Shown here one piece after another: positions 1,274 to 20,114 of a stretch of DNA of 20,630 bases. Source of the stretch: a virus; IMG/VR virus record IMGVR_UViG_3300027788_002317, positions 1 through 20,630 of that record; one strand, 5' to 3'. Under the pieces are notes generated by a model. It was not told the DNA's origin. It searched no databases and saw nothing but the letters and a program-made list of their open reading frames with translations. Both the position numbers and the translations under genes were made by a program. How positions within the stretch are numbered: position 1 is the stretch's first letter; every line of letters begins with the position of its first letter.

Positions 1274-2377
1274 ATGAAAGACTTAAGAGAATACCAATAT
1301 AAATCACCAGGCAACCCAGATAAAATCTGTGAACAGATAACAGAAAATATAATTACGGACATATCTTTAAATGTTGATAATAATTTTAAATCGGATATTC
1401 ACACTATTGTAAATAATCAAGTTTCAGTGGTTGCTGGTAAAATATATTGTGGTAATTACCGACCAGATACTGAGAAAATTGTAAAAGAAGTTTCTGAAAA
1501 ACTAGGTTACACTGGTAAATTAAGGAGGTTCTCTAGTGAAACCGTAAGACATATAAATTTAATTGAGTTTGTTGATGACGTAAAAAGATTTCCAGAGTCA
1601 TCATTTGTGACTTCCTATGGATATTCTTCTGACGAAACAATAGAAGGTCTCCCTATGGGTTACATCATCAGTAGAGAAATAACACACAATGTTTTAGATT
1701 TAGACTTTGTGGGGTTAGATGTTACAACTAGTGTCACCATAGAGTACCAAGGACACCTACCTACTAAAATAACATCAATAAACATTGAGTATTCGTTAAT
1801 TGATTTTGATGAAGACCCAAAAGAATTATTACATGATTGTGAAATACTTTTTAACGGTAAATGTGATAAGTATGTTAATATGTTAGATAAAAATACAAAA
1901 ATTAATACTTCATGTTTTGGTTTAGGTGGACCAGATGTCAGAGTAGGTTCACTTTCCGGAACCATAATACCTACACACTTCGGTAACGTAGGGTTATATG
2001 ATTTTTTAGGTAAAGAAACTATCGGAGTACACAGGTTATCTTCCTTACTGGCAAGACAAGGAGCAAAAACAATTAGTAAAACTAATATGTGTAATGAATG
2101 TCTTATTAAAGTTTCCTATGGTTTAGAAAATGAACCCATTAGGTTCAGTGCAAAGTTCAACAAAGTTCTAGGAGACAGGAACTTTATGGAAAGTAATTTG
2201 CAAGACATATTTCATTTTAATAAAGATGAGTTAGTTAATAATTTCACCCCCAGTGAATTAAATAGAACAATAGACAATACCAATGAATATTTTGGTCAAC
2301 AATACCTAGACGTAACCGATAAAGGTATTCTACCCTGGGAACGACTAGATAAAATAATAGAGTTTACCCCTTTTTAA
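1274..2377 (+). CDS. Divergent S-adenosylmethionine synthetase-like protein
   Basis: The 367-residue protein aligns by eye along its whole length with MetK, which makes SAM from ATP and methionine. Matches include SPGNPDKICEQITENI (family SEGHPDKIADQISDAV), GYSSDET (GYATNET), GLGGPD (IGGP), CLIKVSYGLENEP (CEIQVSYAIGVAEP) and the C-terminal LPWERLDK (FPWEKTDK). Length is close to the usual 380-400. Several catalytic positions differ: His of GHPDK is Asn (N14), the Lys of DAKSQVTFQY is Thr (about T151), Glu of GGEIT is Lys (K56), Asp of GDQG is absent, and the GKDPSKVDR loop is GKETIGVHR. The reading frame is intact. It may be a degenerate or repurposed MetK fold rather than an active synthetase. 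The ATG lies just after the terminator at 1221-1249. The next ORF starts 2 bases past its stop. Confidence 0.75.
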   Translation: MKDLREYQYKSPGNPDKICEQITENIITDISLNVDNNFKSDIHTIVNNQVSVVAGKIYCGNYRPDTEKIVKEVSEKLGYTGKLRRFSSETVRHINLIEFVDDVKRFPESSFVTSYGYSSDETIEGLPMGYIISREITHNVLDLDFVGLDVTTSVTIEYQGHLPTKITSINIEYSLIDFDEDPKELLHDCEILFNGKCDKYVNMLDKNTKINTSCFGLGGPDVRVGSLSGTIIPTHFGNVGLYDFLGKETIGVHRLSSLLARQGAKTISKTNMCNECLIKVSYGLENEPIRFSAKFNKVLGDRNFMESNLQDIFHFNKDELVNNFTPSELNRTIDNTNEYFGQQYLDVTDKGILPWERLDKIIEFTPF

Positions 2378-2836: not shown

Positions 2837-5668
2837 TTAGGCTAAGTTTCCAGCAGCATCTGTTGGGTATGGTATTTCATTAGAGACAACATAGTTTGAT
2901 AATTCTTGTGGGTTTATAACATGAGAAGCATTAAACTCACCATTCTCCTTTATTTTTATTGATAGTTCATTTTTAGATGGCTCCCAAGACCAAAGAATCA
3001 CTTCCTTATTTAATTCAGGTATTTTAAGGGGTTTAAACCCAATATTGTTATTCCAACCCCTATTAGCTCTACCTTCCCACTTAAAACCTAGTTCAGCTGC
3101 AATTTTTTTAAAATTTACAGTGTTAGTTAGTGATTCAGAATCTTCAGATGCAGTCTTAATTTCTTTTACAAACACATCAAGGTCATTACTAGCCTCCTCA
3201 GCACCCTCATCATCGAACCCATAAGCGTCGTACCAAGAATCACTTAAACTATAGTCCAACTCAAACTCATCGGTTTCCGCTAAATCACTAAGGGAAGTAA
3301 TGTTATTACGAGATGCTATAACTAATAACTGTGACCAACTTAACTCAAAACTAAAGTATCGCATGTAGTAATTTTCCACCTCAATTAATGTCTCACTCTC
3401 CCAAGTCTCCCTAAGGTTCTTTACACGTTCTCTATATAAACTATACCCAAGAGAACTAAGGACATTTTTTTCAAAATCTACATACTCACTAGGGAAATTT
3501 TCTTCCAATATATCCATAAGTCTACCATCTTCAAAATCTTGGTGGCCACAATTTTCAGGGGAGCCTGGTTCCAATAAGTCAATATCTTTCATAAAAGCAA
3601 TTAAATTAGACCATGAGGAGTCTGAGTAGTAACACTGAATATAATTCATTTCTTCTGATTCAAGTTCTTCATAGTTATATCCACTGTCATTAAAAATGTT
3701 ATCAATCATCCAAGAGTCATCTTCAGCCTTTAAGTAATCATAAACAAACATATCATGAGGAACATTGAATTCTAGTCCAGTAGAGCTAGCATGTATAGTT
3801 GTATGTCTATCCTCAGAATTAGGTTGGTCAGTACTAGAGAAAGCAAATCGCATATCAGCACCTGTAAAATCTTCTAAATCCTCCTCAACCACTTCTTCAT
3901 CGTATGTGTCTAACCACAACTTATATAAAATTTTTGTAAAGTTATTTTCTTTAGCCATCTCACTTAACTCATCATCATTAAAACTTACATCGTATCTTAT
4001 TCGGTCTCTTAAAGTGTACTCTAATTTAAAGAATTTTTGTAATTCGGGGTGTTGACTAAAAACCTTTTTTAAGTTTTGATTGTATTGGGACTTTCTATCC
4101 CAAAGTTGTTTCCTATCCCCTGAATGAATCATTAAGGGGATTTTACTAAATACGTCTACAATATACTTGTTAATGACCCAATTTTCTGCATAAGTTGAAT
4201 TTTTAAAAATAACAACATAAACACTACCCATGTTTTCATTAAATCTTTTCTTTATAGACTTAATAGCTACATTGGTAGTGGGGGAGACACCACTGTCATC
4301 CCTACACCAACTAGTGTCATTTGCGTAGTAACATAAAGAATCCCAAGTTAGAGGAACTATAATTTTATATTCGTCAGTGTCTAAAACCACTCTCTGTTTA
4401 ATTCCGGTTTTACTTTCTGTTTGTTCGTTTAAGTTAGTTTGGACTAATTGATTTTCTATGCCGTCTATTAATTTAGTGTATAAAGTTTTAGAATCATCAT
4501 CAGTTAACCCATATCTTTGTTTAGAAAATTCTATTGATTTCCTAACTACATCTTTATAGTCTTCTTTGGTTTTCCTAGCTCTTAAATCTAAACCTTTTAT
4601 TTGTGCTGGGACTTCATGGGACTGTAAGTAATAATCTAAATTAGACATTTCTTTTTCTTCTTCGTCGGTAGGTAGTTCACCCATTTCATTTTGTTCATGG
4701 TGAACTAATTCATGCCTTACATATTCTATCAAAAAAGCATAGATTTTTTGATAACTACCAGGTTCATTAAGTGGATTTATTTCTAGACCTAATTCTATGG
4801 TGTCATCACCAGGGCTATAATAAGCTTCTATTAAAAAATCTTCTTCTATTTCCTCATTCCTACTTATAGTTAACTCTAAATTAATTGTGGTGTCATTATA
4901 GGTTATTTCTCCAGTTATGTCTTCTGGAAGATACATTAATGTAGAGTCCTCTTTAAGGATAGTTTTTTTAATAGAAAACATAATATCTTTAACTATCTGT
5001 GTTGTTAATTGGTCATAGTACCTATCCTCAACCGACTCAACTAAAAGTCTAGACGGCCTATTAATTCTTTCGTCAAGCTTACCATATTTTCTTTTTATGT
5101 TTTTTATTATAGTGTTAAATCCATTTTTAACACTTAAAAGACCTACAGAAATTAATACACTTTTAAGGTAACCAGCTGGGTCACTAACATTAATAGTTCC
5201 ATCATTTATTAGACCCACTAATATATCTAAAAGAGGGAAAGTCATAAATGTAAAAGCTGTAACGTCTACCAGTGAATTAGCCGTATAACCAACCTCATTT
5301 GACATCTTCAATACGATATCCTCAGTAGACTTTAAGAAATCAAAAACTTTACTTAATAGACTAGTTAGTCCTTTTTCTCTAATAATTACAAGAGACTTTT
5401 CTATTTTGTCTTTATTCCTACTTAAAAGAATCCACATTGCTGTAATGTAAATTAAAATTATGTCTTGTTCTGTTATGTTAGGGCTTCCACCTTTTAATAA
5501 TTCTCTAACGGTTGGGAGGAAAGCTGTAATTCCAGTACCAAAGGTAAAGGTACCATCAATAACAACCCCTAAGTCCACTAGGACTTTTTTCATGAAAGAT
5601 TCGTTGTTTTCGTTTTGTTCTTTGATTAACCCACTAATAACAACCTCATTTAATATATCTCTTTGCAT
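2837..5668 (-). CDS. Large multidomain protein with HELVH metalloprotease-like motif; possible packaged protein
   Basis: This is a 943-residue protein. Residues 1-20 carry ILNE and LIKEQ, resembling prohead-protease cleavage sites of the (L/I)-x-E type. Hydrophobic stretches lie near 33-56, 68-83 and 135-155. Residues 319-323 are HELVH, with a candidate third zinc ligand E352 in SHEVPAQ, a gluzincin-like arrangement. Residues 425-545 hold a second region (VPLTWDSLCYYANDTSWC) that I recall from many uncharacterised marine phage proteins, where it reads like PLTxEASCKYGxGTKWC; its function is unknown. From about 560 to 850 it is strongly acidic, and the C-terminus has a WEGRANRGWNNNIGF stretch. 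A second LNEQ at about 413-416 lies between the protease-like and WC regions. A TATTTATA element sits 14 bases upstream. Protease activity and packaging are inferred, and it could instead be a structural virion protein. Confidence 0.6.
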   Translation of the reverse strand: MQRDILNEVVISGLIKEQNENNESFMKKVLVDLGVVIDGTFTFGTGITAFLPTVRELLKGGSPNITEQDIILIYITAMWILLSRNKDKIEKSLVIIREKGLTSLLSKVFDFLKSTEDIVLKMSNEVGYTANSLVDVTAFTFMTFPLLDILVGLINDGTINVSDPAGYLKSVLISVGLLSVKNGFNTIIKNIKRKYGKLDERINRPSRLLVESVEDRYYDQLTTQIVKDIMFSIKKTILKEDSTLMYLPEDITGEITYNDTTINLELTISRNEEIEEDFLIEAYYSPGDDTIELGLEINPLNEPGSYQKIYAFLIEYVRHELVHHEQNEMGELPTDEEEKEMSNLDYYLQSHEVPAQIKGLDLRARKTKEDYKDVVRKSIEFSKQRYGLTDDDSKTLYTKLIDGIENQLVQTNLNEQTESKTGIKQRVVLDTDEYKIIVPLTWDSLCYYANDTSWCRDDSGVSPTTNVAIKSIKKRFNENMGSVYVVIFKNSTYAENWVINKYIVDVFSKIPLMIHSGDRKQLWDRKSQYNQNLKKVFSQHPELQKFFKLEYTLRDRIRYDVSFNDDELSEMAKENNFTKILYKLWLDTYDEEVVEEDLEDFTGADMRFAFSSTDQPNSEDRHTTIHASSTGLEFNVPHDMFVYDYLKAEDDSWMIDNIFNDSGYNYEELESEEMNYIQCYYSDSSWSNLIAFMKDIDLLEPGSPENCGHQDFEDGRLMDILEENFPSEYVDFEKNVLSSLGYSLYRERVKNLRETWESETLIEVENYYMRYFSFELSWSQLLVIASRNNITSLSDLAETDEFELDYSLSDSWYDAYGFDDEGAEEASNDLDVFVKEIKTASEDSESLTNTVNFKKIAAELGFKWEGRANRGWNNNIGFKPLKIPELNKEVILWSWEPSKNELSIKIKENGEFNASHVINPQELSNYVVSNEIPYPTDAAGNLA

Positions 5669-5718: not shown

Positions 5719-7470
5719 CTACTCGACAAAATTAATGCCAGGTTGTTCTAAGTCTGGTTGTAATCTGTAATCTGCTGTGAGTTCCTCTCCTTTAGATATT
5801 GGTACTGTGGTTACTAAGAAACGTGAATTATCTTTTAATTCGTTCTTACAATTAGGTTTACCTGAATGGTTATAAGATTTACCTAATTCCGTAAAGGTAT
5901 AGTTAGAGTCTGATATGTCATGTAATTTACCTACATTCACACCCAAGGGTAAGTCAGTTGAGGCAAAAACACCTTTACCGTGTATATTGCTATTATCAAC
6001 GTAGTAAGACGGAGTGTCTACCATCTCTGTTAGGATACCTAACAAACTACACTCAGACAATTGACTAGTATTAACTTTTTCTTTTAATTTGATTACAAAT
6101 GAGTTCTGTATTCTTTTAAGTAAATCTACATATGGTGTGTCACCACCTCCTTTACTTTTGTATGACCCTTTTTGTGGGTTTCTTTTTCCTCGTTTATAAA
6201 AGTTAAGACCAGATATATTAGTTATACATTTATGTCCTCCAGAATTAGAGTTTATTACATCCCAAGATGTAACACCAATCCTATCTAATAAAGCCTTTTG
6301 TTTTTCACTTAGTCTAGGCCAAGGAGTGTCTAAAATACTTCTAATTATTTTACCGTAGTTACCACTCTCATCCGGCATTCCTATTAATTTATCACCATAT
6401 AAAGCATATAAATCAGATGTTTTAAACCCTATACTATCATCGTTAACTTTAGTTTCACTTACTCTTTTAATTACAGAAAGTGGGACAACATAGTTTTTAA
6501 GCTCAGATTCAAACTGACTTAACACTTCTTTTGATATATCACCTAAGTTAACACCTTTTAAAGCTCTATCACTTTTAAATGGGTTACAGGAAGCTTGAAC
6601 TAACCCCATAGGCCACGCTATAACAATAAAATCAGCATCTGGATAAATCTTAAATGGTGTGTAACGGTCGTAAGAACCTGGTTTAAATAATGCACCCCCA
6701 CCATATTGTACAATAATATTATCTTCTAACCTTAAATTATTACTTTGTGTTTGTTTTTTAACATAGTTATCTTGGTTTTGTTTCATCTCTTCAGGTGTAG
6801 CAAATCCATTTTTCTTTGCGAAAGAATTAATATTTGTAAATATGTTTAATAAAGATGGTGTTGAGTTCATTACTAGGTATTCTAAAAACCCAGGTTTATT
6901 CTTATAAGCCAATAATAATTTATTTGTTAATAACCCTAGTACCCATTTATTTTTAGGTAAACTACCGTCCTCATCAAACTTATAAAGATAATTCATAACA
7001 TCATCTGGTGTTAGAGAGTTAGAAGCGTAGTCCGCACTATCTACAGTAGAAATCATCATAATATCTTCATTAGGGAATATATCTTGAGGGCTAACTATTT
7101 GAGAGACAGTCTCAACATTAGAACGAGCACCCCTAAATTGTGTGGAAGTTTCATCTTCTACCCCTGTTTGACTATCGTGGTGGTCTGTGTGAATAGTGAA
7201 TATTGGTTTTCCGTGGGCAAAATCTACTAACACTGGCATTACGTCCCCATTTGCAGAAGGTTTGGACACAGAAAATTCTTTATCACCATATTGTATCACA
7301 TGGGAATCGATTACAGTGATACCGTACTTCTCTAGGTATTCTTTCATTGCTATTGCAGTTACAACCCCATCTAAGTCTTGATGAAAATATATTTCTGCTT
7401 TAGGGTATCTATTTGCTATTGCATTGATATCTCTAATCCCACTCTCTTTTATTAATCTTTTGTTTTTCAT
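5719..7470 (-). CDS. DHH-family phosphoesterase fused to a C-terminal SET domain
   Basis: The 583-residue protein combines two domains. Residues about 24-150 carry the DHH superfamily metal motifs: HQDLDG (30-35), a hydrophobic strand ending in D83 (VLVDF), DHH itself (96-98, in IHTDHHDS) and VDSAD (143-147). Family members hydrolyse phosphodiesters or short oligonucleotides with two Mn ions. Residues about 488-570 form a SET domain: NIHGKGVFAS, then YNHSGKPNC (533-541), then GEELTADY (561-568). These are the SAM-binding and catalytic signatures of protein lysine methyltransferases. The middle (150-480) has no family I recognise. The N-terminus MKNKRLIKES contains an I-K-E site like those of packaged T4 proteins. 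TATTTAT lies 5 bases before the ATG. The frame is intact, so the fusion looks genuine. Confidence 0.75.
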   Translation of the reverse strand: MKNKRLIKESGIRDINAIANRYPKAEIYFHQDLDGVVTAIAMKEYLEKYGITVIDSHVIQYGDKEFSVSKPSANGDVMPVLVDFAHGKPIFTIHTDHHDSQTGVEDETSTQFRGARSNVETVSQIVSPQDIFPNEDIMMISTVDSADYASNSLTPDDVMNYLYKFDEDGSLPKNKWVLGLLTNKLLLAYKNKPGFLEYLVMNSTPSLLNIFTNINSFAKKNGFATPEEMKQNQDNYVKKQTQSNNLRLEDNIIVQYGGGALFKPGSYDRYTPFKIYPDADFIVIAWPMGLVQASCNPFKSDRALKGVNLGDISKEVLSQFESELKNYVVPLSVIKRVSETKVNDDSIGFKTSDLYALYGDKLIGMPDESGNYGKIIRSILDTPWPRLSEKQKALLDRIGVTSWDVINSNSGGHKCITNISGLNFYKRGKRNPQKGSYKSKGGGDTPYVDLLKRIQNSFVIKLKEKVNTSQLSECSLLGILTEMVDTPSYYVDNSNIHGKGVFASTDLPLGVNVGKLHDISDSNYTFTELGKSYNHSGKPNCKNELKDNSRFLVTTVPISKGEELTADYRLQPDLEQPGINFVE

Positions 7471-7485: not shown

Positions 7486-8094
7486 CTAATACTCACAATT
7501 ATAAAATAGTTCCGATTCTTTTTCTCTACGTGAATAATTATTTACCCAAGTACCGTCCCCTTTTCTTTGTTGGGGTGGATTCCACGTCCTAATTCCTGTG
7601 TATGTATCTTCCCACCTACCAAATTTAACATCTTGTATCCAACCACTAGTCCTAACATTTTCACAACCAGAGTTAAACACTAAAGATACCATTGCGTCAT
7701 ACATACATAGGTCCATTTTTGCACCAGCTCTATCGTCCTTTATCCATTGTGTTACTATTCTATTTACACAACCAACAGCATTAGATAAATCATCTTTTAA
7801 TAATTCTAATGCCTTAGTTTTGGTAATAGTATTTCCTTCATAAGCTTCTTTACCTGTGTGACCATAACCTATAGTTAAAGTACCACCAGGTTTACCTTTC
7901 TTATATCTACTACTTTTATATTCTATTGGTGTGTCATTATAATATGCGTCATCATAGGTGTATAGTACTGGTTTCCCATTTACCCCTTCATCTTGAGAAA
8001 TAAAAGTTGTGAGCTTAGAAGAAGCTTTTGTTGGTATAACCAAGAACTCTTCTGTTTGTTCTATAAGAATTTGTAATGAATTTATTAGTTTCAT
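7486..8094 (-). CDS. GH24 (T4-type) lysozyme with N-terminal extension
   Basis: The protein is an N-acetylmuramidase of glycoside hydrolase family 24. Numbering from the chosen start, the catalytic Glu is in ISQDEG (E36), followed by YTYDDA and the signature TLTIGYGHTG (about 72-81), then the helical lobe with LELLKDDLSNAVGCVNRIV and VFNSGCEN. It cleaves the glycan strand of peptidoglycan. I place the start at the second in-frame ATG (8094, 202 residues), because the first (8100) lies inside the TATATTTATGG element. The extra N-terminus MKLINSLQILIEQTEEF precedes the fold and has L-I-E like a prohead-protease site, so this may be a virion enzyme used at entry rather than, or as well as, the lysis enzyme. 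No signal peptide is seen. Confidence 0.85.
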   Translation of the reverse strand: MKLINSLQILIEQTEEFLVIPTKASSKLTTFISQDEGVNGKPVLYTYDDAYYNDTPIEYKSSRYKKGKPGGTLTIGYGHTGKEAYEGNTITKTKALELLKDDLSNAVGCVNRIVTQWIKDDRAGAKMDLCMYDAMVSLVFNSGCENVRTSGWIQDVKFGRWEDTYTGIRTWNPPQQRKGDGTWVNNYSRREKESELFYNCEY

Positions 8095-8098
8095 ATCC

Positions 8099-8107
8099 AT
8101 AAATATA
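8099..8107 (-). promoter_or_regulatory. TATATTTAT element upstream of the lysozyme
   Basis: The coding strand reads GGTATATTTATGGATATGAAA. TATATTTAT overlaps the first possible ATG (8100) and ends 4 bases before the second (8094), which supports the second as the true start. It closely resembles the element before 20453 (TATATTTATAGTATATGAG). Confidence 0.35.
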
Positions 8108-8124
8108 CCTATAACATAATAGAA

Positions 8125-8448
8125 CTACTTTTTAAGTTCTCTATTAAGATACCACATTGCTTTCTTTAAGTCTTGTTTTAAATCGTCTTTTTTCCCTGCA
8201 CGAGAAATATACTTAACAACATTACCTAAATTAAAATTTAAGTCCCAAGCTTCAATAACTTTTATTGCTTCATACATATTATCTTCACCACCATAGTGGA
8301 TTGGGTGTTCAACCTTCTCTATACCCAACTTTCTATTGTATGCTATAATGTCTTCTTGTGTTGGGTAATTTTTGTCCCAGTTGGTATTGGGGTTTTCAGT
8401 TTGTTGGTCCCATTGAGTATTTTTTCCTATTTCTTTATTTTTTTCCAT
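8125..8448 (-). CDS. DUF3310 family protein (T7 gp1.7-like)
   Basis: The 107-residue protein has the DUF3310 signature in its C-terminal half: HPIHYGG, EAIKVIEAW, FNLGNVVKYISRAGKK and DLKKAMWYLNRELKK. This small domain is common in tailed phages. In T7 the related gp1.7 is reported to be a nucleotide kinase acting on dGMP/dTMP, so a role in phage nucleotide supply is plausible but not shown here. The N-terminal 45 residues are polar and low in complexity (NTQWDQQTENPNTNWD). The ATG overlaps the end of the L-2-hydroxyglutarate oxidase gene by 14 bases, which implies translational coupling. No hairpin is seen between it and the lysozyme. Confidence 0.85.
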   Translation of the reverse strand: MEKNKEIGKNTQWDQQTENPNTNWDKNYPTQEDIIAYNRKLGIEKVEHPIHYGGEDNMYEAIKVIEAWDLNFNLGNVVKYISRAGKKDDLKQDLKKAMWYLNRELKK

Positions 8449-9670
8449 TATTTTTGTTGTCTAAATTAAAATTTTTATTTATAAAATTTACCACTTCATC
8501 ACCTATAGATAGACATGCGGTCGCCGCGGGAGAAGGAGCGTTAAGTATGTGGATATTGTTATTGTGCTTAACTATTTTAAAGTCCTCTACTATAGTACCA
8601 TCAATATCTAGTACAGTTGCACGGACCCCACACTTACCTACGACTAAATCATCCATTTCTAATGAAGGGACCATTTTTTGTAACTCCCTTAAAAATAATC
8701 TTTTAGAAAAAGCTCTTTTATATTCCGTTAACCCAAAACGCCAATGTTTAAAAAATAAACGTAAAGTACCTAAAAAAGTCAAAGATTCCCAAGTGTCCCT
8801 CCAGCTAAAAGAAGTTTTTGTGTAACCTTCACGTTTAAATGTAAAAACAGCGTTGGGTCCACATTCCACACTACCATCAAACATTCTTGTAAAGTGTACA
8901 CCTAAAAATGGAAATTGAGGATTCGGTACTGGGTAGATTAGATTTTTTATTTTATATAGTGAGTTTTCCTTTATGTTATAATAATCTCCCCTAAAACCAA
9001 CTACTTTAGAATCTAATTCTACACCATCTTTTTTTGCCAACCTATCAGCAAATAAACCACCACAAAAGATAGAATGTTTAGTGTGAATAACACTATCCTG
9101 TAATATTAATTTTTCTTTTTCTATGTGGATAACTTCTGAATTGGTAGAGACACAACTTTTTGGGTTGATGGTTGTAATTAATTCACTTAATTTTTTAGTG
9201 ACCCCTTTATAGTCTATTATTCCTGACTCAGGTACAAATAGAGCTGACTTACCCTCAGCAAATGGTTCTATAGTTTTTATTTCTTTACTGTAAAGTAATT
9301 TTAATCCCTTTAGACCATTTTTTTTACCATTCTTTTTTAGGGACTTTAATTTTAGTGTTTCTTTGTCGTTAGTCGCTAATACTATTTTACCACAAATATC
9401 ATGTGTTATTTTATGTTTCTTAGCAAACTTAACTAACTGTTTTCTACCATCCACACAATTTTTAGCTCGATAACTACCAGGTTTATAATATAGTCCAGAA
9501 TGAATTACACCAGAATTTCTCCCAGTTTGATGAAATGCTACTTCATTTTCTTTTTCTAATACTATTAAAGAAAGGTTAGGGTGTTTTAGTTGTAACTTAT
9601 AAGCTGTCGCAAGACCAATAATCCCCCCACCTACTATAGCGACATCGTATTTTAAATTATTGTGACTCAT
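8435..9670 (-). CDS. lhgO: L-2-hydroxyglutarate oxidase (FAD-dependent)
   Basis: The enzyme oxidises L-2-hydroxyglutarate to 2-oxoglutarate with FAD. The N-terminus YDVAIVGGGIIGLATAYKL is the Rossmann FAD motif (GxGxxG at about 14-19), followed by a Glu ending strand 2 (VLEKE). HQTGRNSGVIHSGLYYKPGS (about 47-66) is the signature that sets LhgO apart from other DAO-family oxidases. The C-terminus has CGVRATVLD and NAPSPAATACLSIG. I chose ATG 9670 (411 residues, the normal family length); an upstream in-frame ATG at 9712 would add a poor, overlapping stretch. The start overlaps the upstream gene by 14 bases and the end overlaps DUF3310 by 14 bases, a matched coupling pattern. All visible family motifs are intact, so I expect activity. 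Such a gene is unusual in a phage and may top up 2-oxoglutarate during infection. Confidence 0.88.
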   Translation of the reverse strand: MSHNNLKYDVAIVGGGIIGLATAYKLQLKHPNLSLIVLEKENEVAFHQTGRNSGVIHSGLYYKPGSYRAKNCVDGRKQLVKFAKKHKITHDICGKIVLATNDKETLKLKSLKKNGKKNGLKGLKLLYSKEIKTIEPFAEGKSALFVPESGIIDYKGVTKKLSELITTINPKSCVSTNSEVIHIEKEKLILQDSVIHTKHSIFCGGLFADRLAKKDGVELDSKVVGFRGDYYNIKENSLYKIKNLIYPVPNPQFPFLGVHFTRMFDGSVECGPNAVFTFKREGYTKTSFSWRDTWESLTFLGTLRLFFKHWRFGLTEYKRAFSKRLFLRELQKMVPSLEMDDLVVGKCGVRATVLDIDGTIVEDFKIVKHNNNIHILNAPSPAATACLSIGDEVVNFINKNFNLDNKNNGKK

Positions 9671-9980
9671 CTGAACCAGAACCAACAGGTGATAGAATAT
9701 CTTTGTATTCACCCTCTAAGGTTTTTATCAAATCCAACACTCTAGATTGTAAGTCTTCAACTTTTTTAACATCACTTTTCATAACACTAATAAGTTCTAC
9801 TTTGGTTTCCACATCTCCCGGTAGAATTAATACCTTATAACCAAAATCGTTCATTAGTTTTTGAGCAAAAGCTCTAAGTTCTGCTTCAGGTGGTACCCTT
9901 AATAATTGCACCACTAAAATTGGTTCATATTTTTCCTCCACTAATTTAATTAAATTATCTAATACTTTTGTTTCTTCCAT
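9657..9980 (-). CDS. Unknown small protein between rmlA-like and lhgO
   Basis: I recognise no family in this 107-residue protein. It begins with a helix (MEETKVLDNLIKLVEEK), then a hydrophobic strand (YEPILVVQLLRV), a PPEAELRAFAQKLM helix and a second strand (YKVLILPGDVETKVELISV). This alternating pattern would suit a small alpha/beta domain. The C-terminal half is a predicted charged helix (VKKVEDLQSRVLDLIKTLEGEYK), possibly a coiled coil, with a flexible GSGSDESQ tail. The start is 11 bases after the stop of the RmlA-like gene, and the end overlaps lhgO. It therefore sits inside the metabolic transcript, but nothing shows its role. Confidence 0.65.
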   Translation of the reverse strand: MEETKVLDNLIKLVEEKYEPILVVQLLRVPPEAELRAFAQKLMNDFGYKVLILPGDVETKVELISVMKSDVKKVEDLQSRVLDLIKTLEGEYKDILSPVGSGSDESQ

Positions 9981-9991
9981 TTTTATATTTT

Positions 9992-10807
9992 TTATTTATT
10001 ACTTATTTTTGATTTACCATACTCACCATCAGCTCCAACCATTGGAAGTGGTGACTGGCAGTTATTTTCACACGAACATAATTTTTTATTTGACACTAAA
10101 GATGACGCCTTTAATAAACTCTCAAAGGTACCAGCATCCGACCACCAAGAACTTAAAAAATGACAACTCATTAACCTATCTTTCACATAGAAATTATTCA
10201 CATCTGTAATTTCTAACTCACCTCTATCTGAAGGTGTTAAATTTTTAATATAATTAAATACTTTATTGTCATAAACATATAAACCAGTAACACAGAAATT
10301 AGATTTTGGATTAGATGGCTTTTCTTCAATTGATACCACACTACACTCATCACCAGTTTTTATTTCCGCCACACCGAATCTTTCTGGGTCATGAACCTCC
10401 TTTAAAAATATTCTAGACCCACCATCAAAATCACTTAAATCAGAGGACGTAAGTTCATCATCAAATATGTTGTCACCTAAACAAACTGCTACATTTGAAG
10501 TACCGACAAAACGCTCAGTAAGAGCCAAAGCGTGAGCAATACCTCCTGCCTCATCTTGTATTTCATATGAGAGTCTAACGTTAAAGTCTCTCCCACTCCC
10601 TAAGAGGTTTAATATATCTCCACAGTGTTCTCTACCAGAAACTATCATAATGTCCTTACAACCCAGTTTAATTAAGGTCTGTAAAGGGTAATAAATCATA
10701 GGTTTATCGTAAACCGGTAATAGATGCTTGTTTGTCACTTTAGTTAACGGGTACAACCTACTTCCTGTACCACCCGCAAGAATAACTCCTTTTAATTTTT
10801 TTGCCAT
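9992..10807 (-). CDS. Glucose-1-phosphate thymidylyltransferase family protein (RmlA-like)
   Basis: The 271-residue protein carries the sugar-1-phosphate nucleotidyltransferase motifs: KGVILAGGTGSRLYPLT (6-22, nucleotide binding), LLPVYDKPMIYYPL (29-42, catalytic Lys), QDEAGGIAHA (84-93), CLGDN (109-113), IEEKPSNPKSNF (sugar phosphate) and WWSDAGTFESLL. RmlA makes dTDP-glucose, the precursor of dTDP-rhamnose and related surface sugars. It is somewhat shorter than bacterial RmlA (about 290) and ends in a short Cys-bearing tail (CSCENNC) that could bind metal or be a lineage quirk. No RmlB, C or D is in the window, so its product presumably feeds a host pathway or genes elsewhere. It heads the minus-strand group, back to back with the DUF932 gene. 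UTP-glucose specificity cannot be excluded. Confidence 0.85.
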   Translation of the reverse strand: MAKKLKGVILAGGTGSRLYPLTKVTNKHLLPVYDKPMIYYPLQTLIKLGCKDIMIVSGREHCGDILNLLGSGRDFNVRLSYEIQDEAGGIAHALALTERFVGTSNVAVCLGDNIFDDELTSSDLSDFDGGSRIFLKEVHDPERFGVAEIKTGDECSVVSIEEKPSNPKSNFCVTGLYVYDNKVFNYIKNLTPSDRGELEITDVNNFYVKDRLMSCHFLSSWWSDAGTFESLLKASSLVSNKKLCSCENNCQSPLPMVGADGEYGKSKISNK

Positions 10808-12793: not shown

Positions 12794-14524
12794 ATGAAAA
12801 GTAAAACTACTAAAAAAAAACATAATTGGACAACACTTTTAACTTTTAAGAGAGAATATTTTACTATAATAGAACACCAATCATTTAATGAATTAACATT
12901 AGTTGGTGATTTAAATGAGGTTGCTGTCCCACATGAAATAAAAACAATAAGCAGAACTCCATTTGTTAAAGACAAAGATAATTTTAGAGTTGTAGACGTT
13001 GTGTTCTTCACCCCAAAAGACAAATGGTCAGAGGGTTCACCAGTTATAGATGAAAAAACTTGGATAGATAAATCACTAGATATTTTTAGTAGTGCTATGG
13101 TAAGTAGGGTTACGGTAGCATTGGAAAAAAATGAGGATAAGATTAAATTATCTTTATTTAGGTTTAGTAAACAAAGGAGAGTAGGACATAAATACTTTAG
13201 TAAACGAAGTGATGATTTACACATTACTTTTAATACAACAACAAAAAATTTCTTTATAACAGACTCTAGATTTTTAAATAGAAAAAGGTCAACAGTAACA
13301 ACCAAAAACGATTTCATGAAAATTATAAGTGTACTAAACCCACTATCAACTAAAGGGCTGTTATCGACTGATGGGTATAGAGAAAACCAACAACAAAAAG
13401 ATATCGATAATGAAGAACTAATTTTGTTTATGAAACAAATTGAAAAAACTTTACAAAAAGAACTAAAGGTTAAAAATGACTTGAGTTACTTTGGTGAAGG
13501 GATGGGTAAGTTATTGATGGATTGGTTTGTTAAAGTACGTAAAATAAAAGTACCTAACGATTACTATTATTATTTGTCACGACATTACCCAGGAATTAGA
13601 AAATTAAATAAATTTAAAATGAATTTAGGTAGAGCAATTCTAGATAATAAAAATTTAGTTGGGAAATATTACATAAAACTAATTAATACACATGGTGGTT
13701 ATAATCTAAATGACCTAGTTATGTTAAAAATTATCTTTGGTGAAAATCACACTAAATTAATACCTAAAAATTTCCTAAAAATAAGTGCGAATTCTTCTGA
13801 CAGTAAACAAAACTTAGAGGCAAATCCCATTGACCACATTAACTCTTTAAAATCTAGAGAGAAACTAAATTTAATAAAAGTAATTAAGGAGGTGGATGAC
13901 CCATTTTTCATATCACAGATATTTGACCACATATACGCAAAAAAAAGATTAAATGGTTTGGGTTTAGAAAAGAATATTAACTGTACTACTTTAAACCAAT
14001 TCAACCAAGAACACCAAAACTGGGCTGAATTAATTAATTTATGTGAACGTAATGAAGAAACAACATACCACTATCAAAATAACTTTATAAATGAAATGGA
14101 AAAAAATATGATAGTTAAAGAAAATACGTATAAAGTAAAAGTCCTTGATTCAGATTTAGAGTATTTTAATGAGGGGCAAGTTCAATCCCACTGTGTCAGG
14201 ACTTATTTAAGTAGATATGATAGTATAGTGGTTTCAGTTAGGCAAGAAAGTCTAAACTCAGTTAATAGAATGACATGTGAATTTAAACATGGTGAGTTAA
14301 ACATATCACAAACCAGAATGAAACATAATAAGTTACCAGTGGGTGATTGGTTAGAAGTTACGGAAAAATTAGAGGTAAGGTATAAGGAATTTTGTCTAAG
14401 AAACACATTAGAAAAACCAAAAATAGAAATATATAATAGAATAACTAATATGAAATATGATGGTTATAAGAGTGATAGAGGGGTAACCTACGGTAATATA
14501 GCACAGGAAGACTTACCTTTTTAA
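12794..14524 (+). CDS. PcfJ-like protein
   Basis: The 576-residue protein has a C-terminal region typical of PcfJ-like proteins of phages and conjugative plasmids (first named on Enterococcus pCF10). It reads YFNEGQVQSHCVRTYLSRY (457-475), then SIVVSVRQ, a TCEFKHGELNISQTRMKHNKLP strand-turn unit, and a closing helix. The family consensus is EGxxMxHCVGSY...IFSLR...TxEI...IxQxxGxxNxxP; here Gly after HCV is Arg. The molecular function of PcfJ is unknown. The N-terminal 200 residues are basic and strand-rich with many Lys/Arg, suggesting nucleic-acid contact. The middle is helical. It is the first gene of the long plus-strand run; a 34-base gap separates it from the glutamine synthetase gene. 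Confidence 0.7.
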   Translation: MKSKTTKKKHNWTTLLTFKREYFTIIEHQSFNELTLVGDLNEVAVPHEIKTISRTPFVKDKDNFRVVDVVFFTPKDKWSEGSPVIDEKTWIDKSLDIFSSAMVSRVTVALEKNEDKIKLSLFRFSKQRRVGHKYFSKRSDDLHITFNTTTKNFFITDSRFLNRKRSTVTTKNDFMKIISVLNPLSTKGLLSTDGYRENQQQKDIDNEELILFMKQIEKTLQKELKVKNDLSYFGEGMGKLLMDWFVKVRKIKVPNDYYYYLSRHYPGIRKLNKFKMNLGRAILDNKNLVGKYYIKLINTHGGYNLNDLVMLKIIFGENHTKLIPKNFLKISANSSDSKQNLEANPIDHINSLKSREKLNLIKVIKEVDDPFFISQIFDHIYAKKRLNGLGLEKNINCTTLNQFNQEHQNWAELINLCERNEETTYHYQNNFINEMEKNMIVKENTYKVKVLDSDLEYFNEGQVQSHCVRTYLSRYDSIVVSVRQESLNSVNRMTCEFKHGELNISQTRMKHNKLPVGDWLEVTEKLEVRYKEFCLRNTLEKPKIEIYNRITNMKYDGYKSDRGVTYGNIAQEDLPF

Positions 14525-14558: not shown

Positions 14559-15635
14559 ATGAAGATAAAATTAGAGTATGTTTGGTTAGATGGGTACATA
14601 CCAGAACCTAACATAAGAAGTAAAACTAAAATTTGGGATTTCGACCCACTAACATCGCCGAAATACCAACCACAAAGAAAAATGTCAATAGACGGTAAGT
14701 TAATACCTGTACCTAACGAATTACCGGATTGGTCATTTGACGGAAGCTCAACTAAACAAGCTAAAGGTAACAATTCGGATTGTATACTTTCACCAGTAAA
14801 AGTAGTTAGGGACCCACAAAGGTTAGATGCTTTTTTAGTTTTATGTGAAGTATATGATTCTAAAGGTAAAGCTCACCCAACTAACAACAGGGAAGGGTTA
14901 TCTAAAGATGAACAATATTGGTTTGGTTTTGAACAAGAGTATGTGTTACTTAAAAACGGAAAACCATTAGGTTTCCCTGTAGATGGGCACCCAGAACCAC
15001 AAGGTAGGTATTACTGTGGGGTTGGTTTTGAATCTGTAGAAGGTAGGGACATTGTAGAAGAACATTTACAAGTGTGTTTAGAGTCTGGGTTAAATATTAC
15101 AGGTGTAAATGCTGAAGTAATGCTTGGACAATGGGAATATCAGATTTTTGGTAGAGGTTGTACAAACGCTTCAGATGATTTATGGTTATCTAGATATTTT
15201 TTAAATAGGATAACTGAAAAATATGGGGTTAAGGTTGAGTTGCACCCTAAACCAGTAGATGGAGATTGGAACGGGTCAGGAATGCACTGTAATTTTTCTA
15301 GTGACCTAATGAGAGAGACTGGTGGGGAAGAATTATTCAATACAATTTGTGATGAACTAGGTAAAAAACATAATGAAGATATTATGGTTTATGGTTCCGA
15401 TAATGAATATAGGTTAACTGGATTACACGAAACCCAGTCCATGGATAAATTTACTTATGGGGTCTCTGACAGAGGAGCTTCAATACGGATTCCAATTCAT
15501 ACGGTGGAAAACAATTGGAAAGGTTATTTAGAAGATAGAAGACCAGCAAGTAACTCTGACCCTTACCAGGTAGCTTCAAAAATATTTAAAACTATTGAGA
15601 AAGTAGAAAAAGAATTTAGAACCATAACCGCTTAA
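14559..15635 (+). CDS. Type II glutamine synthetase
   Basis: The 358-residue enzyme joins ammonia to glutamate using ATP. It is the short, eukaryote-like GSII type, which also occurs in Bacteroidota. Motifs in order: the beta-grasp start (LEYVWLDGY), WSFDGSSTKQA (58-68), FEQEYVL (124-130, metal ligands), NAEVMLGQWEYQI (184-196), GDWNGSGMHCNFS (235-247, ATP site), RLTGLHET (285-292), GVSDRGASIRIP (301-312) and EDRRPASNSDPY (325-336). All main ligands are present; one notable change is Asp for the usual Asn before RGASIRIP. Length is normal. No adenylylation loop is expected in this type. It is likely cotranscribed with its downstream neighbours. The probable role is supplying glutamine for phage nucleotide and protein synthesis. 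Confidence 0.92.
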   Translation: MKIKLEYVWLDGYIPEPNIRSKTKIWDFDPLTSPKYQPQRKMSIDGKLIPVPNELPDWSFDGSSTKQAKGNNSDCILSPVKVVRDPQRLDAFLVLCEVYDSKGKAHPTNNREGLSKDEQYWFGFEQEYVLLKNGKPLGFPVDGHPEPQGRYYCGVGFESVEGRDIVEEHLQVCLESGLNITGVNAEVMLGQWEYQIFGRGCTNASDDLWLSRYFLNRITEKYGVKVELHPKPVDGDWNGSGMHCNFSSDLMRETGGEELFNTICDELGKKHNEDIMVYGSDNEYRLTGLHETQSMDKFTYGVSDRGASIRIPIHTVENNWKGYLEDRRPASNSDPYQVASKIFKTIEKVEKEFRTITA

Positions 15636-15650
15636 CTTATAATTATAATT

Positions 15651-16766
15651 TTGAAAAATATATACGAACAAAAAACAGACTTCACTAATGAAAATTTCCC
15701 ACTAGGGGAATATTTTTTAGAGACTTTTAAAACTGTACCTAACATGCTTTTTATTGAAAAACAACATTCATATAAAATTAAAGGTTGGTTGGAAAAAAAC
15801 ATGGTAAAAATTCACGAAATTACTGTGTTACTTAATGATGAAGTGTTGCCCCAAACTGAATACTATAAACACGAGGCAATTCTAGGGCATAATGGGGCAA
15901 ATCTAATAGTGGAAGTTAGATACCACCACCAAGGAATAGTTGATTTTAACCTAGAAGACAATACAAGTCAACCACCACTTAAAGTGGACGATATGGGGGT
16001 AGCGGTTAGGTGTTTTTACCAGAGAATGGAAACAGTACAACCATTTTTAGATTTTTTAAAAACAGATAGTTTTGAAGATAAAAATAAAAAAAGTTTATCC
16101 ATAATTACTAAAGATGAGTTTGGTTTTAGACTTAAAGAATTTAAAATAGAGTATGATGAAAAATTAGATTTAGATTTACATTACGGTAAAAATTTTATTA
16201 AAGTACATAAAAATACTTGTGAAGGTTTAAATAAAAGTAAAAGTGGTTTAGTGTTATTACATGGTAAACCAGGTACAGGTAAAACCACATATATAAGAAA
16301 TCTAATTAATAACCTTAATAAAAAAGTAATTTTTGTTCCACCTTTTATGGTTGAGTCATTAACAAGTCCGGAGTTTATACCTTTTCTAATGAACCATCCA
16401 GATTCTATACTGGTAATAGAGGACGCTGAAAAAGTAGTGTCTACCAGAAGCTCCACTAGTAGTAATACTGGGGTGTCAAACATATTAAATTTAACTGATG
16501 GTTTATTAAGTGATTGTTTAAATGTTAAGATAATAGCTACTTTTAATATGGATACAAAAGACATAGACCAAGCGTTGATGAGGAAGGGAAGATTAATATC
16601 CGAATATAGATTCTGTGACCTACCAATCGAAAACGTAAAGAGAATATTTAAAAAATTAAAGATAGATAATAAAGTAACAACCCCTATGTCTTTAGCAGAT
16701 ATTTATCATCATGGGGTTGAGTCATATAAAATAAAAAATAACCCTATAGGTTTTAAAAATAATTAA
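15651..16766 (+). CDS. BCS1-like AAA ATPase
   Basis: The 371-residue protein has a C-terminal AAA module: Walker A HGKPGTGKTT (204-213), Walker B ILVIEDAE (253-260), sensor 1 IIATFN (294-299) and ALMRKGRL (308-315) with the candidate arginine finger. These resemble the BCS1/ClpX-related AAA ATPases found in many large phages. The first 180 residues are not a family I recognise. The start is a TTG at 15651, because the next in-frame Met is 32 codons in and the nearby ATG is out of frame. The TTG follows an AT-rich leader 15 bases after the glutamine synthetase stop. It abuts the thioredoxin start directly. The role is probably protein or nucleoprotein remodelling, with an unknown substrate. 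Confidence 0.8.
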   Translation: MKNIYEQKTDFTNENFPLGEYFLETFKTVPNMLFIEKQHSYKIKGWLEKNMVKIHEITVLLNDEVLPQTEYYKHEAILGHNGANLIVEVRYHHQGIVDFNLEDNTSQPPLKVDDMGVAVRCFYQRMETVQPFLDFLKTDSFEDKNKKSLSIITKDEFGFRLKEFKIEYDEKLDLDLHYGKNFIKVHKNTCEGLNKSKSGLVLLHGKPGTGKTTYIRNLINNLNKKVIFVPPFMVESLTSPEFIPFLMNHPDSILVIEDAEKVVSTRSSTSSNTGVSNILNLTDGLLSDCLNVKIIATFNMDTKDIDQALMRKGRLISEYRFCDLPIENVKRIFKKLKIDNKVTTPMSLADIYHHGVESYKIKNNPIGFKNN

Positions 16767-17081
16767 ATGGAATTAACAAATAATAATTTTAGTGAAACAC
16801 TAAAAGACAATAAAGTTGTAATGGTGGATTTTTGGGCTCCCTGGTGTGGTCCTTGTAGAATGTTGGGTCCAACGATAGAAGAAATAAAAAACGAAAACAC
16901 CAATAAAGAAGCTGTGGTGGCAAAAGTTAATGTCGATAAGGAAGGTCAATTAAGTCAAGAATTTGGAATAAGAGGAATACCAGCTGTTCTATTTTTTAAA
17001 GATGGTGAGTTAATAGAAAGGATACAAGGTGTTCACCCTAAGTCACATTATGTGGAAAAATTAAATTATTATTTAAATTAA
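16767..17081 (+). CDS. Thioredoxin
   Basis: The 104-residue protein is a full-length thioredoxin with the WCGPC active site (26-30), the buried Asp (D21 in VMVDFWAPW), the conserved GIRGIPAVLFF strand with cis-Pro (P72) and the KDGELIERIQG hairpin. It reduces protein disulfides and ribonucleotide reductase in the cytoplasm. In T7, host thioredoxin is also the DNA polymerase clamp, but nothing here shows such use. The ATG follows the AAA ATPase stop with no gap, and the glutaredoxin begins one base after its stop, so the two redox genes form a coupled pair. Confidence 0.95.
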   Translation: MELTNNNFSETLKDNKVVMVDFWAPWCGPCRMLGPTIEEIKNENTNKEAVVAKVNVDKEGQLSQEFGIRGIPAVLFFKDGELIERIQGVHPKSHYVEKLNYYLN

Positions 17082-17082
17082 T

Positions 17083-17355
17083 ATGAAAAGTATTTTATTA
17101 TATAGTGAAGATGGTTGCCCTTGGTGTACCGACCTTAAGAAACAACTAACAGAAAATAACATAAAGTTTTTAGTTAGAGATGTTCAAAAATACGCTAAAG
17201 AATGGGAGTTAGTTGTTACATTAACAGAAAATGAATATGTCCCTTCTTTATGTATAATTGACCACACCAGTAAAGAAAAAACATATGTAGTACCTGATAG
17301 GGATTTTGAAGATATAAATGAAGCTATAGATAAAGTTAAAAATATTTTAAAATAA
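17083..17355 (+). CDS. Glutaredoxin
   Basis: The 90-residue protein has a glutaredoxin fold: an N-terminal strand (SILLYSEDG), active site CPWC (12-15), a second strand (IKFLVRDVQKY) and a cis-Pro in EYVPSLCII (P54). CPWC differs from the common CPYC but occurs in phage and NrdH-like glutaredoxins. The typical GG motif near the C-terminus is replaced by PDRDFEDINEAI, so glutathione binding may be altered. It probably supplies electrons to ribonucleotide reductase with the thioredoxin beside it; no reductase is in this window. It is separated by one base from each neighbour. Confidence 0.85.
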   Translation: MKSILLYSEDGCPWCTDLKKQLTENNIKFLVRDVQKYAKEWELVVTLTENEYVPSLCIIDHTSKEKTYVVPDRDFEDINEAIDKVKNILK

Positions 17356-18680: not shown

Positions 18681-20114
18681 ATGAATTTAATCGACGCCAT
18701 ACAACAAAAAGACACAACGACTGAGAACGGGATGACCACAAACTCAACCTCACTCAATCACTGTGTTAATCTATTTTTTCAAATAGGAGCGATGCGTGGT
18801 GCGAGCAAAGACAGACTTCACGCCAAGGTTTCGAAAGCTTTTAATGAAGACCCTCTCACAACAATTAGAATTATTTTTTGGGCACGTGATGTCCGTGGTG
18901 GAGCTGGTGAGAGACAAATCTTCAGAGATTGTTTATTGTGGTTATGTGACAATCACAGAGAAGTACTACATAAAAACATTCACTTAATTAGTGAATACGG
19001 TAGGTGGGATGACGTTTTAACGTTAGTTGGGACTCAAAACTGTTGGGATACAGCACTTGATTTAGTTAAGGTCGCTTTGGTTAACAAAGATGGGTTATGT
19101 GCTAAATGGATGCCAAGAAAAGGTAGGAAAGCGAATATTATTCGAAGATACCTTAAAGTATCACCAAAAACATACCGTAAGTTATTAGTAGGACTTACAA
19201 ATGTGGTTGAAACCAAGATGTGTGCAAAGGACTGGTCAAGTATCGAGTATTCGAAACTTCCGTCCTTAGCCTCGTCAAGGTATCAAAAATCTTTCATGAA
19301 TAATGATGAAGAGAGGTATGAGGAGTACAAAAGAGCTTTAGTTGATGGTAAAACTACTATTAACGCGGGAGCTGTATACCCTTATGACATTACTAAATCC
19401 ATCAAATATGGTGGAGAGAAGGATGTTGCGCAAGCACAATGGGATTCTCTTCCAAATTACATGGAAGATATTAATGAAAGAGTATTACCTGTAGTTGATG
19501 TATCAGGTTCAATGGGAAACTCCGCAGGAAATAACGGTAACGTTACTTGTATGGATGTTTCAACATCATTGGGTCTGTATATCTCAGAGAGAAATGAAGG
19601 TGTCTTCAAAAACGCATTCATAACATTCTCTTCGAAACCACAACTACAATTACTTGAAGGTTCATTAGCCAATAGGTTACATGAATTACAGAGAGCAGAC
19701 TGGGGAATGAATACTGATTTACAAGCAACGTTTAAGTTAATCTTAGACCAAGCGGTAAAAAATAATGTTCCAGTATCAGAGATGCCAACCAAAGTTCTTA
19801 TCCTTTCGGATATGGAGTTTGATGAAGCAATCAGTGGTGACTATGACAGAGTATCAGAATGGAACCCAACTGCGCAAGAAATGATTAAAGGGATGTATGA
19901 GGAAGCTGGTTACAAAATGCCAGGGATTGTTTATTGGAATATCCAAAGTAGACAAGACAAGGTACCAACTAGTTTCGACGAGATGGGAACGGCATTAGTA
20001 TCAGGATTCTCACCCTCAATCATGAAAAGTATATTAAGTTGTCAGGATATGACACCTTATAATATGATGATGGAGACTATCGGGTCCGCTCGATATGAAC
20101 CAATCAAGGTCTAA
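18681..20114 (+). CDS. Ro60/TROVE-like DUF2828 protein with vWA domain
   Basis: The 477-residue protein has an N-terminal helical-repeat region with DUF2828/TROVE blocks: NSTSLNHCVNLFFQIGAMRG (21-40), DPLTTIRIIFWARDVRGGAGERQIF (57-81) and ISEYGRWDDVLTL (103-115). A C-terminal von Willebrand A domain has the MIDAS residues DVSGSM (273-278), Thr in GMNTD (T345) and Asp in LSDMEF (D377). Ro60 relatives form a ring that binds misfolded RNA inside and Y RNA outside; the bacterial Rsr protein of Deinococcus works with Y RNA and PNPase. DUF2828 proteins are less studied, so an RNA role is inferred. Codon use looks less AT-rich than in neighbouring genes, hinting at strong expression or separate origin. 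About 270 bases of hairpin-rich non-coding sequence follow the stop with no gap. Confidence 0.82.
   Translation: MNLIDAIQQKDTTTENGMTTNSTSLNHCVNLFFQIGAMRGASKDRLHAKVSKAFNEDPLTTIRIIFWARDVRGGAGERQIFRDCLLWLCDNHREVLHKNIHLISEYGRWDDVLTLVGTQNCWDTALDLVKVALVNKDGLCAKWMPRKGRKANIIRRYLKVSPKTYRKLLVGLTNVVETKMCAKDWSSIEYSKLPSLASSRYQKSFMNNDEERYEEYKRALVDGKTTINAGAVYPYDITKSIKYGGEKDVAQAQWDSLPNYMEDINERVLPVVDVSGSMGNSAGNNGNVTCMDVSTSLGLYISERNEGVFKNAFITFSSKPQLQLLEGSLANRLHELQRADWGMNTDLQATFKLILDQAVKNNVPVSEMPTKVLILSDMEFDEAISGDYDRVSEWNPTAQEMIKGMYEEAGYKMPGIVYWNIQSRQDKVPTSFDEMGTALVSGFSPSIMKSILSCQDMTPYNMMMETIGSARYEPIKV

Follow-up and report, generated by a model that had tools for sequence, protein, structure and literature searches.

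A DHH-DHHA1 phosphoesterase joined to a SET domain in a marine phage is a candidate head-packaged precursor

Why would a phage carry two unrelated effector domains, DHH-DHHA1 and SET, in one protein chain? The question is raised by a gene from a marine virus of bacteria, located in a stretch of 20,630 bases which was analysed at full length and is referred to below as the window (Table 1). The original prediction, that DHH and SET motifs occur together in one intact frame, is borne out by the uninterrupted ORF, by the predicted fold and by a Pfam match to SET. The frame has no internal stop and is equally open in the source virus record. The motifs named at that time are all present, those of the DHH half being invariant in 29 homologues, and homologues keep the fusion, with SET following DHH in about 13 distinct proteins. 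In particular, record L132 has exactly the same intact arrangement, with 92% identity to the window protein in the DHH half and 81% in the SET half, and with dN/dS values of 0.059 and 0.114, respectively. Purifying selection acts on the two halves alike. Because L132 keeps the arrangement, with these identities and low dN/dS, a frameshift or assembly artefact as the source of the fusion is ruled out. Our literature search found no paper combining a SET domain, a DHH phosphoesterase and a phage, a megablast comparison of the full window with phages had no match, and neither the DHH-SET protein nor its 943-residue neighbour had a match in PADLOC.

Table 1. Coordinates of the DHH-SET gene, its parts and neighbours, and of features in related records (↓, candidate cut site)
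Feature	Record	Position	Strand	Basis or remarks
Whole DHH-SET gene (putative precursor)	window	5719..7470	-	583 aa, ATG start, uninterrupted frame
Candidate capsid-targeting tag MKNKRLIKE, residues 1-9, ending in (I/L)xE	window	7444..7470	-	tags of homologues; disorder
DHH domain, residues 10-215	window	6826..7443	-	invariant catalytic residues, fold; boundary with DHHA1 approximate
DHHA1 half, residues 216-470, SGGHKCITN motif and closing helix	window	6061..6825	-	alignment to AlaRS C-Ala and NrnA
Linker, residues 471-487, candidate cuts LSE-473↓C and LTE-482↓M	window	6010..6060	-	conserved in L132; modelled disordered
Minimal SET domain, residues 488-583 (start approximate)	window	5722..6009	-	PF00856; structural matches vSET, SETD8
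Phage lysozyme	window	7486..8100	-	N-terminus MDMKLINSLQILIE↓Q, same kind of tag as DHH-SET
943-aa protein	window	2837..5668	-	tag ...GLIKE↓Q; membrane-like module, HELVHH zincin module, third module behind NLNE↓Q
AdoMet synthetase (MetK) relative	window	1274..2377	+	86.5 bits vs curated cut-off of 309 bits; GHPDK reads GNPDK
PcfJ-like protein	window	12794..14524	+	PF14284, 1.3e-14
RNA-binding protein phrog_850	window	18681..20114	+	4e-151; TROVE/Ro60-like as judged from sequence
Metabolic genes	window	14559..17355; 8435..10807	+; -	judged from sequence only
Myxococcales relative of the DHH part	L127	3662..5488		apparent signal peptide where the phage family has the tag
Four proteins sharing one tag type	immuto NC_055915	1803; 103806; 117631; 118632		MENFDLKKFLVENKLTxNSxLLxE
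SCYYGxxTKWCTAS domain	G003	71201..73117; 160579..162198; 187034..188365		no Pfam match for the domain in these three copies
SCYYGxxTKWCTAS domain	G004	68617..70185; 73503..74783		
SCYYGxxTKWCTAS domain	G001	131636..133000; 135567..137252		

Residues 10–470 are, by modelled fold and intact motifs, clearly a DHH-DHHA1 phosphoesterase, for which catalysis is predicted. The Pfam DHH match at residues 27–127 is sub-threshold (17.2 against a cut-off of 28.1 bits), matches to the recJ profile are weak, and no solved-structure sequence was matched at E≤1 when the family alignment was used as the profile. The catalytic positions D32 and D34 (HQDLDG), D83, D96-H97-H98 (DHH) and D144 (VDSAD) are invariant in 29 aligned homologues, as are most positions of the NSGGHKCITN block (residues 409–418), which resembles the GGGH motif of DHHA1. 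In a first AlphaFold2 model, made for the whole protein (mean pLDDT 67), residues 1–12 and 471–500 are poorly modelled and probably disordered. DHH-DHHA1 structures align with this model across residues 24–465, and the DHHA1 regions of AlaRS C-Ala and NrnA align to about 229–474. Since the model aligns with DHH-DHHA1 structures there, the middle of the protein, some 330 residues that had initially gone unrecognised, is mostly DHHA1, and the linker from DHHA1 to SET is short, about 15–20 residues.

A second model, of residues 10–472 with 40 sequences (pLDDT 79, pTM 0.79), has PAP phosphatase 8a8k as its best structural match (VIA-align Z 16.6, 283 residues, rmsd 3.8), followed by the pGpG phosphodiesterase PggH (7d62; Z 15.8), RecJ and archaeal RecJ (Z about 13–14 over about 300 residues), pApA phosphodiesterases (Z about 12–13) and NrN with SAM-AMP or SAH-AMP (Z about 11.5–12). 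Nearly all of the matches listed for residues 10–470 belong to the DHH superfamily. The ranking favours a small-nucleotide substrate without proving one. Alternatively, the DHH half could be a single-strand exonuclease like RecJ, serving to degrade host DNA or to trim the injected DNA, as the RecJ scores and the weak recJ profile matches would allow; the two top matches, however, are small-substrate enzymes, and although this gap in Z does not decide the substrate, we regard the exonuclease as the less probable enzyme. The window protein thus shares its fold and invariant metal-binding motifs with RecJ and with the DHH-DHHA1 phosphodiesterases NrnA/Pde2, DhhP, PggH, NrN and PAP phosphatase, but it differs from the known enzymes in its low structural-alignment identity (about 10–16%), in its length (about 460 versus about 320 residues) and in being phage-borne, tagged and placed at the head of a putative polyprotein.

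The C-terminal ~100 residues are, from sequence, a SET domain of the lysine methyltransferase type, and methylation is predicted. The PF00856 match covers residues 525–568 (1.4e-6, 29.1 bits against a cut-off of 22.4), the SAM-binding and catalytic motifs GKGVFA, NHSGKPNC and GEELTADY are present, and vSET and SETD8 are among the structural matches of the first model, so that neither of the two folds is missing from the predicted structures. In its minimal size and in these motifs the domain is similar to vSET of PBCV-1 and other small SET lysine methyltransferases; unlike them, it is encoded by a phage and lies behind a DHH half with candidate cut sites in between. A relative of AdoMet synthetase is also encoded in the window, and a functional tie between it and the SET domain is speculation.

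The N-terminus of the window protein, MKNKRLIKE↓S, looks like a capsid-targeting sequence. In phage T4, the prohead protease gp21 cuts after L/I-x-E, the propeptides of internal proteins (10–19 residues) are capsid-targeting sequences, and Alt and the internal proteins are ejected into the host (PMC9026906). Because the (I/L)xE motif is short, only comparative evidence counts: the motif alone is found near 17% of N-termini and about equally often elsewhere. Where the start can be read, every distinct homologue (74/74) has a short N-terminal tag that varies in sequence, with 32 different versions, but always ends in [ILV]xE, and E9 is invariant in the 29 aligned homologues. The cellular homologue (L127) lacks the tag glutamate and has an apparent signal peptide instead; therefore, the DHH fold does not require E9. 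Remote homologues in phages of 635–735 kb keep xNE tags with otherwise different sequence. At the other end of the DHH-DHHA1 half, the junction reads QLSE↓CSLLGILTE↓M, and 14 of 15 linker residues are the same in L132 although synonymous sites are saturated. Among distinct junctions with a further module, 31 of 33 have the motif at most 32 residues away, compared with 27% of control windows in the same proteins; the remaining two are proteins with a longer DHH tail, the true junctions of which read NITE and NLTE. The homologues are related to one another, and the p-values of the comparison with L132 are therefore only indicative. Genome-wide, the short tag pattern is weakly enriched, and therefore the homologue comparison was relied on; a longer pattern gave 7, 2 and 5 matches where 0.9, 0.7 and 0.6 were expected. 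Furthermore, same-strand neighbours of the DHH gene are tagged in 35 of 92 cases and opposite-strand neighbours in 1 of 75, and the tag of the adjacent lysozyme is retained in the lysozymes of relatives. In a scaffold-like protein there was no excess of cut sites (15 versus 13 expected).

The tag rule is not universal, since in three records (L133–L135) SET is part of a polyprotein with internal (I/L)xE motifs and no N-terminal tag. In these records the larger protein starts with a nucleotidyltransferase-like PGGFKPPHAGHY motif. Likewise, phage SET proteins are not always tagged: those of cyanophages P-RSM6 and P-SSM7 have only 99 residues and the SET match begins near residue 7–11, and SET of the non-T4 phage Kolga has no (I/L)xE-type tag.

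An alternative would be an ordinary bifunctional enzyme, made during infection, whose DHH and SET parts are never separated and whose (I/L)xE motifs are structural or due to chance. The continuous ORF, purifying selection on both halves and the brevity and commonness of the motif agree with it. By contrast, the motif recurs at the N-termini and junctions regardless of the module behind it, SET is absent from most homologues, the linker is modelled as disordered yet conserved, and the same tag is found on neighbouring genes, all of which makes an uncut enzyme improbable in our view. Conservation of the junction sites (QLSE↓C and ILTE↓M in L132), together with unrelated modules behind the same kind of site, suggests rather that DHH and SET are separated before acting; the notion of the fusion as a functional unit is not supported.

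A protease that would have the matching specificity is encoded by relatives with large genomes. Both a gp21-type S77 protease and the major capsid protein gp23 occur in two related records (G003 and G004, 199 and 298 kb), and the gp23 propeptide is predicted to end in HLINE↓A, the same grammar as in the DHH tags. Neither gp21 nor gp23 is present in the 20.6 kb window fragment, gp21-type protease was not found in 17 other records, most of which are fragments, and none of the SET-fused relatives has been tied to a complete T4-type genome. Flavobacterium phage immuto, a related isolate, likewise encodes a gp21-type protease; its capsid site is predicted to read QIVSE↓A, and its genome shows families of similar tags. 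A literature search for a virion proteomics paper on this phage found none. Four immuto proteins share one tag type, in a genome with both gp21 and gp23 (Table 1), which makes the isolate a tractable test system.

What lies behind the sites varies from phage to phage. At least 594 relatives of the DHH part are present in viral contigs, whereas the annotated phage collection has only a few, distant ones, in the 635–735 kb phages, and just one, in a Myxococcales assembly, came out of 84,980 scanned bacterial and archaeal genomes. Most homologues have no SET, and the C-terminal extensions of DHH range from none through SET and M23/PG-binding/GH19 modules to other domains. In L136, where T4-type gp23 and portal are also encoded, SET forms a tagged protein of its own (MKVLFENWRKYINE↓A). 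The third module of the 943-residue neighbour is a separate gene elsewhere, starting MSINNLNE↓QVNK or MLNE↓QVNK, and the zincin that forms the middle module of this neighbour stands alone in G003, likewise tagged (MGHLINE↓I). Thus, as read from these sequences, the same modules occur behind an (I/L)xE site in one phage and as independent tagged proteins in another, and the 943-residue neighbour is itself a candidate packaged polyprotein. An unnamed recurring domain, SCYYGxxTKWCTAS, is often found in (I/L)xE-tagged proteins of G001, G003 and G004. The metabolic set of the window comprises a glutamine synthetase-like protein, thioredoxin, glutaredoxin, an L-2-hydroxyglutarate oxidase-like FAD oxidase and a sugar nucleotidyltransferase.

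The extensions bear on where the proteins act. They might be packaged and cut but act in the envelope, the modules helping DNA through the periplasm and DHH removing nucleotides or nucleic acid there, as the sister fusions of DHH to M23, PG-binding and GH19 modules, the adjoining tagged lysozyme and the apparent signal peptide of the sole cellular homologue would suggest. However, SET requires SAM, which is cytoplasmic, and the swapped modules need no common compartment, since cut modules can reach different places; we consider action in the envelope unlikely.

Overall, we favour, with a probability of roughly 0.65, a reading in which DHH-SET is a head-packaged precursor that a gp21-type protease divides into DHH and SET enzymes, which are then injected. 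We infer packaging, cleavage and injection from comparative sequence evidence, and the substrates and roles in the host from family knowledge only. The first nine residues would act as a capsid-targeting sequence, bringing the precursor into the assembling prohead, where the T4 gp21-type protease would cut behind LIKE-9 and again at LSE-473, LTE-482 or both. The virion would then contain the DHH-DHHA1 phosphoesterase and the small SET methyltransferase as two free enzymes. Both would enter the host with the DNA, ahead of phage gene expression; given what the N-terminus looks like, the original suggestion of delivery on entry was a reasonable guess. The DHH enzyme would most likely hydrolyse a small nucleotide substrate as a pre-emptive counter-defence, the candidates being short oligonucleotides and alarm signals made of linear or cyclic di- or oligonucleotides. 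SET would most likely methylate a host protein on lysine and so play a part comparable to that of T4 Alt, which modifies RNA polymerase. Counter-signal roles have been predicted for DHH phosphodiesterases in a survey of jumbo phages (PMC7824862), and NrN is a SAM-AMP phosphodiesterase, a host CRISPR-associated enzyme (PMC10600005). The window protein shares with them the DHH chemistry, there proposed or shown to remove nucleotide alarm signals, but in the survey's passages on them the jumbo-phage enzymes are listed with neither SET partner nor tag.

The candidate precursor resembles two known kinds of injected proteins. As in T4 IPI, IPII, IPIII and Alt (PMC9026906, PMC3012670), there is a short N-terminal propeptide ending in (I/L)xE, relatives of the phage have a gp21-type protease together with a gp23 that follows this cut grammar, and the cargo would be enzymes or inhibitors meant for the host. 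Unlike the T4 proteins, the chain comprises at least two enzyme modules with internal sites, so that the protease would act as a polyprotein processor, and its packaging and ejection are predicted. Polyvalent proteins of phages and conjugative elements are injected multi-domain proteins, probably separated by zincin-like peptidases, which about 36% of the surveyed proteins have in their own chain and which are thus common but not universal there; the survey mentions neither DHH nor SET domains (PMC5512222). DHH-SET is similar to them in having several unrelated effector domains per chain, neighbouring genes with lysozyme and zincin domains, and a predicted delivery with DNA, which here would follow from the tag. 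It differs in that its sites match the prohead protease and that its own chain has no zincin, the HExxH motif being absent from the sequence.

On balance, we think that in T4-related phages of this marine group the prohead protease processes general cargo, with DHH, SET, cell-wall hydrolase, zincin and unnamed modules being shuffled: modules would move between tagged single proteins and (I/L)xE polyproteins, to be cut in the head and injected as a kit. Phage proteins already present in the host at DNA entry are so far known chiefly from T4 (Alt and IPI) and from the Dar proteins of P1. If the packaged-cargo reading holds, it would describe a modular route by which viruses deliver ready-made enzymes to the host, here a nucleotide phosphoesterase and a protein methyltransferase present in the host at DNA entry. 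Odd fusions such as DHH-SET would then reflect packaging convenience and not shared chemistry. Moreover, the grammar of tags and cut sites would make it possible to list, from sequence only, which proteins a large and mostly unannotated group of marine phages injects, and would predict the cut positions of each precursor.
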